This document shows positions 11,942-49,289 of a stretch of DNA of 64,000 bases, in pieces. The stretch's first letter is position 1. The number at the start of each line of letters is the position of its first letter. A program made the position numbers and the translations under genes. The DNA is from Pontibacillus sp. HMF3514 (GTDB lineage: Bacteria > Bacillota > Bacilli > Bacillales > BH030062). Below the pieces are notes generated by a model. It worked only from the letters and a program-made list of their open reading frames with translations. It was not told the DNA's origin and did not search any database. Location of the stretch: assembly GCF_009858175.1 (NCBI RefSeq), contig NZ_CP047393.1:2046001-2110000 (forward strand), given 5' to 3'.

Positions 11942-11979
11942 GAGCGTTGAAATACTAAACAATTCAACGCTCTTTTTTA
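11942..11979 (+). terminator. Terminator downstream of the YjcZ gene
   Basis: GAGCGTTGAA (11942-11951) pairs with TTCAACGCTC (11963-11972), followed by TTTTTT. The left end of repeat element A abuts it. Confidence 0.85.
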
Positions 11980-12712
11980 TTCCACTAAAGCCCCCTTATA
12001 TTGAAGACTTGGATCCGAGATAATGTGCGGAGGTCCGTTGCTAGAAAAAGATTAAGGGGTTCAGTGAAACGGCAATACTCCTGCGGAAGACCAGCTGAGC
12101 TTCCTCGTTCGCAAGCTCTCTGCGGGATCTCGTCAGCCCTTTGCTACCACTGGAGTTTGCCGTTTCCTTCACCCCTTTGCGTTTATGGAGGTTAACGGAC
12201 CCTAGTTATTTGAGCTCTAACCCTTACGGACATCTGTTCCGTTATTTTGAACTTTTAAGGCATTTAGAGAGTCGTTACGGACATATGGTACCTTATTTGT
12301 GACAAATTAGGCTTTTTCAAGTTGATTTGATGCAAATAACGGAATGAATGTCCGTAAGCTCTTCATAAAAGTCATATTAAGATCAAATAACGGAACAGAT
12401 GTCCTTAAGCATCACCTCTCCATATCACTGCGGTTCCGTTCATCACGATTCGGCTAAGGTGGGCTGTGGAACGGGTTGACTCCTCCGGTAGAAAGGGCGA
12501 GCGAGATCCCGCAGGAACGTAGTGACGAGGAAGCTGTAAAATAAACAAGGAAGTTCGACTAAGAGCGCTACATCCTGTAGCAACATCGAACGACCCCACG
12601 TCGTGTGGGGCCGGGGAAAGCAACCCGTTCCACAGCCCACCGAACTGCATAAACATAACGGAACCACCCCGCACCAGCTTATTCCAGATAACTGCCAAAT
12701 TGTTGAATAACA
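11975..12712 (+). repeat. Composite palindromic repeat element A
   Basis: The stretch 11980-12860 holds no believable gene; its open frames are by-products of inverted repeats. In order it has a left end (AGCCCCCTTATATTGAAGAC), palindrome P1 (12032-12201, GGTCCGTT...AACGGACC), a linker with inverted copies of a CGGACATCTGTTCCGTTA unit (12223-12250 and 12383-12409), palindrome P2 (12432-12665, GGTTCCGTT...AACGGAACC) and a right end containing TTATTCCAGATAACTGCC. P2 has perfect 20-bp inner arms, 12459-12478 and 12621-12640. Its apex carries an extra two-hairpin module (12533-12612) absent from copy B. The element is near-identical, inverted, to 32137-32812. Confidence 0.88.
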
Positions 12713-20435: not shown

Positions 20436-20532
20436 AGTACAGATAACTCCTTGATATGTATTCCTTTCTATCTTATAGAAGATTTAAAAAGCTTGTAAAG
20501 AATAAGGAACTAATCAGATACTTATCCAAGAC

Positions 20533-21078
20533 AAGCCCCCTTATCTGGAAGACTTGATTTCGAGATAACGTGCGGTAGAGGTCCGTTGACGAAAAAAGAG
20601 TAAGGGGTTCATTGAAACGGCGATACTCCTGTGGAAGACCGTCCGAGCCTCCTCGTTCACTCCGTTCTCTGCGGGGTCTCGGCCGCCCTTTCTACCACTG
20701 GAGTTCGCCGTTTCCTTCACCCCTTGCTGTTATGGAGGTTAACGGACCCATAGCTGTAGTGGACCTCACATTAAAGTTAGGTAATCCAAAACCTCTAAAT
20801 AGCTTTCTATAAGAGCTCTACTTAACTTCAGATACTGAATTAGGCAAGATCATTCGTCTGCGGTTCCGTTTATCTCAATAACGCCAATGTGGGCTGGGAA
20901 ATGGGTTGACTCCAGCGGTCAAACGGGCTAGCGAGACCCCGCAAGGAGCGAATAGCGGATGAGGAGGCTCGATAGTTCGTCCGCAGGAAAGCAACCCATT
21001 TCCCAGCCCACCCGCTCTCTATTTGGCAACGGAACCACTCTACGCCTTATTCCAGATAACTACCATATAACCGAATAA
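20533..21078 (+). repeat. Composite palindromic repeat element C
   Basis: This fills most of the gap 20436-21170. Order: left end AGCCCCCTTATCTGGAAGAC, palindrome P1 (20580-20748), a linker unrelated to that of A/B, palindrome P2 (20862-21036), and right end TTATTCCAGATAACTACC. P2 inner arms are 20889-20908 (GTGGGCTGGGAAATGGGTTG) and 20992-21011, perfectly complementary although they differ from copy A at three positions. Left and right ends share TTATCTGGAA in inverted orientation. Open frames over the palindromes are not genes. Confidence 0.87.
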
Positions 21079-32136: not shown

Positions 32137-32812
32137 TGTTATTCAGTTATATGGCAGTTATCTGGAATAAGCTGGTGCGGGGTGGTTCCGTTATGTTTAT
32201 GCAGTTCGGTGGGCTGTGGAACGGGTTGCTTTCCCCGGAAGACCGATCGAGCTTCCTCGTCACTACGTTCCTGCGGGATCTCGCTCGCCCTTTCTACCGG
32301 AGGAGTCAACCCGTTCCACAGCCCACCTTAGCCGAATCGTGATGAACGGAACCGCAGTGATATGGAGAGGTGATGCTTAAGGACATCTGTTCCGTTATTT
32401 GATCTTAATATGACTTTTATGAAGAGCTTACGGACATTCATTCCGTTATTTGCATCAAATCAACTTGAAAAAGCCTAATTTGTCACAAATAAGGTACCAT
32501 ATGTCCGTAACGACTCTCTAAATGCCTTAAAAATTCAAAATAACGGAACAGATGTCCGTAAGGGTTAGAGCTCAAATAACTAGGGTCCGTTAACCTCCAT
32601 AAACGCAAAGGGGTGAAGGAAACGGCAAACTCCAGTGGTAGCAAAGGGCTGACGAGATCCCGCAGAGAGCTTGCGAACGAGGAAGCTCGGCTGGTCTTCC
32701 ACAGGAGGCTTGCCGTTTCAATGAACCCCTTACTCTTTTTTCGGCAACGGACCTCCACCGTACATTATCTCGGATCCAAGTCTTCAATATAAGGGGGCTT
32801 TAATGGAATAAA
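32137..32812 (-). repeat. Composite palindromic repeat element B (inverted copy of A)
   Basis: The reverse complement of this stretch matches 11975-12712 from end to end. On the plus strand the order is right end, P2 (32184-32353), linker, P1 (32584-32753), left end. Over about 440 bp (A 12090-12534) I see one linker difference (C in A, T in B, in GAA[C/T]TTTTAAGG). B lacks the 80-bp apex module of A and instead has GGAAGACCGATCGAGCTTCC at the P2 apex. The two copies flank 19.4 kb. No gene lies in 32077-32877. Confidence 0.88.
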
Positions 32813-48566: not shown

Positions 48567-48597
48567 GATGAGTATATTATTCTTATTCATCCATGTT

Positions 48598-49194
48598 AGC
48601 CCCCTTATCTGGAAGACTTGGAATCGAGATAATGTGCGTATGGTTCCGTTGCTTTTGTGCAGATCGGCGGGCTGTGGAACGGGTTGCTTTCCCCGGAAGA
48701 CCGATCGAGCTTCCTCGTCACTTCGTTCCTGCGGGATCTCGCTCGCCCTTTCTACCGGAGGAGTCAACCCGTTCCACAGCCCGCCTTAGCCGAATGGAGA
48801 TTAACGGAACCGCCTTAGTTCTGGGATGAGGTGTTCTGTTTCCAGGTAGTATAACCCTATCATGACAAGGCTCTGAACAACTTCTCTGAATATGATTTCC
48901 AACCAACATGAGGTGGGATAGCAAAATTATGGTCCGTTAGTTTCCATAATCGCGTGGAGGGAAGGAAACGGCAAACTGTCGTGGTAGCAAAGGCAAGACG
49001 AGACCCCGCAGGAACGAGGAGGCTATACAATGGAGGTTCTACCAAAACCGCCACATCATGTGGCAACGTAGAACTACCCCACGTCGTGTGGGGCAACAAC
49101 AGGCTTGCCGTTTCACTGACCGCAACAAATTACTCAACAGCAACGGACTCCTCTCAGTTTCAAGTCTTCAACAATCCTGCCATATAATTGAATA
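48598..49194 (+). repeat. Composite palindromic repeat element D
   Basis: This fills most of 48510-49289. Order: left end AGCCCCCTTATCTGGAAGAC, P2 (48642-48811) with inner arms 48667-48686 and 48765-48784 (GCGGGCTGTGGAACGGGTTG), an unrelated linker, P1 inverted (about 48933-49150), and right end CCTGCCATATAATTGAATAA. Relative to A and C the two palindromes are swapped. P1 carries at its apex the two-hairpin module (49036-49093) that element A carries in P2, ending in the same CCCCACGTCGTGTGGGG. In B. subtilis ypoC occupies this position. Confidence 0.86.
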
Positions 49195-49289
49195 ATAAAA
49201 TAAGCGCCAATAAAAAAAGCAGCTCAATTAAGAGTATCAATCATACTCAAAAAATCGAACTACTTAAAACAAATGTTCATGCTCTTTAT

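Follow-up and report, generated by a model that had tools for sequence, protein, structure and literature searches.

REPINs are built from an inverted pair of hairpin units with compensatory changes on the two sides, according to passages of two papers (PMC3116915, PMC3733652). The second of these also describes, in part, REP subfamilies with alternative complementary stem residues, among which GT pairing is frequent, and raises the possibility that enzymatic removal spares heterodimers. BOX elements, in the portion of PMC3049150 that treats them, have constant ends and variable middles, and a section of PMC8604942 reports arm homogenisation and spacer inversion through template switching. A B. 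halodurans family, Bhal-1, is entered in the catalogue of PMC2267715 (in the part consulted), and Bacillaceae-1 appears among the candidate RNAs in an excerpt of PMC2864571. The element described here could be related to Bhal-1. A literature search, which included four 13-base pieces of the hairpin core and had most subscription journals outside its coverage, found no description of it; the core pieces turned up one paper, whose title concerns plants.

Like REPs and REPINs, as far as these passages describe them, the element is intergenic, present in high copy number and organized as an inverted hairpin pair with compensatory changes; it also falls into subfamilies with alternative stem residues and, as in several REP families, its dimers are of unlike units. 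It differs in its far greater size, with hairpins of about 170 nt and a length of about 500–725 nt in most copies, in having terminal repeats, in lacking a supported RAYT partner and in the differing interiors of shared sites. Inspection by eye showed no GTAG or CGTC tag, the hairpin feet being GGTCCGTT and GGTTCCGTT. With BOX of Streptococcus pneumoniae, in the sections of PMC3049150 concerned, it shares constant end modules, a variable folded interior and a modular build. BOX, however, has tandem boxB units and reported target-site duplications, whereas here the two hairpins are unlike, no duplication was seen, and the difference between species extends to whole interiors. Bacterial MITEs (such as RUP, bcr1 and Correia elements) resemble it in their terminal inverted repeats, folding and absence of visible coding capacity, but for the present element neither a target-site duplication was found nor a parent insertion sequence identified. 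Since paired arm changes have already been reported for REPs and REPINs, the element is probably best read as a variant of that kind, and such changes are less unusual for passive debris than the earlier note had held.

The window, by which we mean the whole stretch of DNA analysed, is 64 kb of Pontibacillus sp. HMF3514 (NZ_CP047393.1), a salt-loving relative of Bacillus, and holds four copies, A to D. Read from the sequence, each consists of two ends, an inward-facing pair of large hairpins and a spacer; in all four, hairpin P1 is flanked by GGTCCGTT and AACGGACC and hairpin P2 by GGTTCCGTT and AACGGAACC. Copy A (11978–12711, plus strand) is complete from TTATTC to GAATAA, and its orthologous site is present in G002, the draft genome of a sister in the same genus. 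Its P1 (12032–12201, plus) has the core in forward direction and is followed by a spacer (12202–12431, plus) of small palindromic units of the AACGGAACAGATGTCCGTAAG type, then by P2 (12432–12665, plus) with the core reversed and inner arms at 12458–12478 and 12621–12641. Comparison of A with B indicates that a Bacillaceae-1 RNA module (RF01690; 12543–12609, plus, 65.6 bits) replaces part of the distal P2 stem of A. Copy C (20522–21078, plus) has P1 at 20580–20748 and P2 at 20862–21036, with inner arms at 20889–20908 and 20992–21011, and copy B (32139–32810, minus) has P2 at 32184–32353 and P1 at 32584–32753. The interior of copy D (48586–49195, plus) has the opposite order, with P2 on the left (48642–48811) and P1 on the right (48931–49149), the latter containing a second RF01690 module (49026–49092, plus, 59.2 bits). 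Near-duplicates of each other (98% over 507 bp), A and B leave the window itself with just three arm versions. The matching segments, 12029–12535 in A and 32250–32756 in B, are inverted and separated by 19.7 kb, and could serve as substrate for a 20-kb inversion.

Read directly, the P2 inner arms pair perfectly over 20 bp in A, B, C and D. The 5′ and 3′ arms are GTGGGCTGTGGAACGGGTTG and CAACCCGTTCCACAGCCCAC in A (5′ arm at 12459–12478) and identical in B, GTGGGCTGGGAAATGGGTTG and CAACCCATTTCCCAGCCCAC in C (20889–20908), and GCGGGCTGTGGAACGGGTTG and CAACCCGTTCCACAGCCCGC in D (48667–48686). Three positions separate A from C and one separates A from D, each changed in both arms, and P1 reads CGGCAA/TTGCCG in A and CGGCGA/TCGCCG in C; these are the paired changes that the earlier note had described. 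Chance pairing is excluded because D's P2, folded as single-stranded DNA, has a z score of −6.58 against 200 shuffles.

The same pattern extends to 132 P2 hairpins from the two genomes, which have four main arm versions that differ at paired positions and are each complementary. With position 3 ignored, 95 of the 132 match their subfamily consensus in both arms. Single-arm changes number 45, of which the 5′ arm has 30 and the 3′ arm 15. Two hairpins combine two subfamilies as chimeras, and in 68 the core strand is left unpaired at position 3, with C opposite A. The claim that every copy has perfectly complementary arms thus holds for the four window copies and gives way in the family, with its single-arm changes and half-paired position 3. 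Private paired changes in P2 are few, namely two, one in our genome and one in the draft G002, against 0.058 expected (P = 0.0016). The 91 P1 hairpins carry 15 paired changes, in 12 hairpins, where 0.013 are expected, a count of changes and not of events, since several were inherited together; a further 12 changes affect a single arm, and three positions changed differently on the two arms.

Searching the genome with copy A gave at least 134 matches (40 of 167 candidates scored) and with P2 at least 70 (40 of 228 candidates scored). The end pattern, with up to three mismatches, was hit 147 times, compared with 38 for a reversed control, and the 130 loci fetched contain 102 left ends, 88 right ends and 85 two-ended copies. 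End motifs in these 85 are spaced 249 to 778 nt apart, and 500 to 725 nt apart in 76 of them. Conservation breaks off sharply at TTATTC and at GAATAA, which form the terminal inverted repeat, and over the 85 copies no target-site duplication was found, nor any run of matching left and right flank positions. Within the interior, the spacer and the Bacillaceae-1 modules are optional. In five loci of the relatives G001 and G007 (L335, L336, L343, L345, L346), left-end sequence stands at both sides of other interiors.

The element's sites are intergenic and very rarely between divergent genes: tandem spacers hold 54 of the 85 copies (contexts −− 32, ++ 22), convergent spacers 26 (+−) and divergent spacers two (−+), three being unclear. 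The 32 and 22 tandem contexts give no clear orientation bias relative to genes. A simple script placed terminator-like sites within 120 nt on the left of 42 of the 85 copies and on the right of 48.

Copies with two recognised hairpins always combine P1 with P2 (63/63 in our genome and 23/23 in G002, 86/86 in total), and neither P1+P1 nor P2+P2 occurs among these 86. Both orders are found, split 54 and 9 in our genome and 18 and 5 in G002. One or no hairpin was recognised in 22 of our 85 copies and in 3 of 26 from G002. The hairpins face inward in all 44 copies with two strict cores; the other 41 of the 85 have one strict core or none. Common descent accounts for part of this rule. Movement of single hairpins should produce like pairs; their absence means that interiors move as a whole or that like pairs disappear.

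We compared 39.6 kb of the window with G002, where each of the four copy sites contains element sequence, that of D being shorter and those of B and C having contig ends inside. (Several G002 draft contigs end inside elements, e.g. C30, C35 and C64.) In two more distant members of the genus the C site is too short for a copy, at about 103 vs 731 bp in G004 and 128 vs 751 bp in G005. Among 57 G002 loci, orthologous flank was found for 24 of our 85 copies, on both sides for 14, and at these 14 shared sites flank identity is 88–97%. The interiors at the shared sites are non-orthologous. Recognised modules differ at all 14, and the order of P1 and P2, read by eye, is reversed at 6 of the 12 where it is readable. 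Thirteen of the 14 sites gave hairpins, 25 in all, and for none of these is the orthologous hairpin the best match; median identity is 0.81 to the ortholog compared with 0.91 to the best other copy, and a median of 46 other hairpins are more alike. Of the 14 sites, G002 has a recognised strict left end motif at 11 and a right one at 7. At the left end the outermost 12 bases show a signal of orthology (0.77 vs 0.60, in an ungapped and noisy comparison in which the adjoining flank itself reaches only 0.54), and this signal is gone further inward.

Since interiors differ between species at shared sites, much of the within-genome covariation is carried along in hairpins that are already complete. 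Instead of interior exchange, hot spots that receive repeated insertions would be an alternative account of these sites, one made less likely by the sharing of all four window sites. A more elaborate possibility is that the sites are fixed chromosomal docking sites, where a dedicated, putative recombination activity acting on the shared ends keeps swapping and inverting hairpin cassettes of unlike pairs, like pairs being forbidden; we consider this unlikely.

Beyond the genus, a scan with the exact core pattern returned at least 120 stretches, and hairpins with the same core occur in at least 23 named genera and in one further row, '[Bacillus] enclensis'. Clustering at 85% among the matches listed left 49 representatives. 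From genus to genus a conserved core returns together with an asymmetric internal motif, CGCTTTCC opposite GGAGTC, and the outer arms vary. Among loci L201–L320 the hairpin often retains this motif, and in one group both arms carry TTCCGCTCC in the same direction. Aligned plainly with MAFFT, the cross-genus set had misaligned arms and no useful consensus fold, so we relied on permutation and on an anchored register. In the alignment-free permutation test on the 49 representatives, the outer arms of one hairpin scored a mean of 10.35 with their own partners, compared with a permuted mean of 5.49 and a maximum of 6.47 in 5000 permutations; the own partner was strictly best in 26 of the 49. The tree-based null used the 32 representatives with both anchors and a home-made statistic that is like R-scape and not R-scape itself. 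The family-wise 5% threshold is passed by 6 of 18 pairs, where the null averages 0.06; Watson-Crick pairing reaches 0.64, and no more than 0.38 in the null. Counted per branch of the cross-genus tree, paired columns changed on both sides 74 times and on one side 215 times, a point against the reading preferred below. Covariation therefore survives the removal of near-duplicates, on which the earlier note had made its claim depend.

This bears on an account in which nothing acts on the arms today, and in which duplication of a few masters that differed in their arms, followed by decay, produced the present copies. Such a history would explain why most paired differences within the genome are common to whole subfamilies and why interiors appear to travel as units. 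It is weakened by the cross-genus test, as arms stay complementary in different genera despite their different sequences, and the private paired changes in single copies also speak against it. We regard it as very unlikely.

Significant covariation would be expected if the element made a structured RNA, regulatory or small, whose folding is under selection, and a known RNA family, RF01690, is indeed a module in some copies. Genome-wide, RF01690 has 59 hits, 58 of them above the cut-off; 57 of the 59 lie in the fetched loci, 39 of these within 800 nt of element ends and 18 not. RF01690 thus behaves as a module of repeats. It occurs inside some copies of the element but, unlike the element, spans just 67 nt and is also found elsewhere. 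By eye, 15 of the 18 hits away from the element lie inside a second repeat, bordered by sequence of the CGCCCAGCAAC type and containing further repeated segments (for example L106, L107, L109, L113 and L128).

Selection on an RNA should make G-U the favoured outcome of single changes, as read on the transcribed strand. Arms are well in register in 21 of the 49 representatives, from 13 named genera and '[Bacillus] enclensis'. In these, which are filtered for pairing, the 336 pairs include 5 wobbles for the core strand, 10 for the opposite one and 51 other mismatches, so that wobbles amount to 1.5–3% of pairs and have no strand bias. Raw wobble-type mismatches over all hairpins are strand-asymmetric (525 vs 272 in our genome, 216 vs 88 in G002, 72 vs 47 across genera), and the mismatches at position 3 of P2 are wobbles on one strand; both would suit an RNA. 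The raw asymmetry counts against a DNA reading, though we believe that it stems from fixed internal-loop positions common by descent, which this count still includes. Private changes in P2 lean the other way in a hand tally (16 vs 7, p about 0.09), so weak selection on RNA may still act. A structured RNA is also hard to reconcile with interiors that lie in both orders between the ends, with the lack of orientation bias and with the terminator-like sites that, on a given side, separate about half of the copies from the gene. We therefore think it quite unlikely that RNA folding explains the covariation.

More likely, the structure is kept as DNA. We favour this because wobbles in register are few, orientation bias is absent, private paired changes in P2 exceed their expectation and half-paired positions occur in about half of the copies. 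Of the two readings first offered, selection on the structure itself or correction of the arms against each other as DNA, the covariation they set out to explain is real and the evidence leans to the DNA level, at which selection on the hairpin may still operate.

Selection of that sort would follow if the hairpin were a recognition signal. An HUH-type or other transposase, or a hairpin-binding protein, would act on the folded DNA; copies with broken arms would stop spreading and paired changes would be selected, as proposed for REPINs. The conserved core and asymmetric motif, with outer arms that vary, fit such a signal, as do the inward-facing hairpin pair, which is shared with REPINs, and the lack of target-site duplication. 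A Y1 transposase is present in all 8 genus members searched, and 2 of 12 fetched Y1 loci (L330, L332) include an element end or core. In these two, from G005 and G006 respectively, an element end and a hairpin core lie no more than about 0.5 kb from a Y1 transposase frame. G003 has no match to a query made from the left part of D, and its Y1 frame is only 139 aa long. Against a recognition signal, PF01797 is found in 102 of 120 genomes of the order and is absent from 2 of the 12 with the exact core pattern (a pattern that misses divergent copies, e.g. those of G001 and G005), the single Y1 gene of our genome has no element in its 3.3-kb locus, and the half-paired position 3 persists in P2. We consider this possibility less than likely.

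Y1/RAYT as a general mobiliser found no support, with no element at our genome's own Y1 locus and no link over the 120 genomes, and no mobilising enzyme came to light. No open frame was noticed between the ends in 20 stretches from relatives, in some of which frames of 80–130 codons overlap the repeats, and no ORF-bearing copy was noticed among the fetched loci. Carriage by phages or plasmids was also considered, and the left part of D had no match in either collection.

For the covariation, the shared sites, the non-orthologous interiors and the unlike pairs that we observe, our preferred reading, held with about even confidence, is a non-autonomous, modular, palindromic element of REPIN/BOX-like type, in which fixed sites exchange their interiors and the arms are copied one from the other. 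Its two ends, the short inverted repeat TTATTC...GAATAA, would enclose P1 and P2 facing each other in most copies. Interiors would be replaced between sites, mostly as whole units, through ectopic gene conversion or recombination among about 100 copies. Complementarity would be kept at the DNA level: either strand may fold into a hairpin in which one arm templates the other (quasipalindrome template switching), and a change in one arm would become a paired change through this copying. Subfamilies with new arms could then spread by interior exchange. A like pair would amount to one long palindrome and might be lost through hairpin instability, which may be why solely P1+P2 is seen.

With many sites, two close species and paired changes, the family offers a natural repeated experiment on whether arm complementarity is kept by selection or by DNA copying. 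Interior exchange and the unlike-pair rule provide a testable link from hairpin instability to repeat evolution. Covariation by itself is no proof of a functional RNA.
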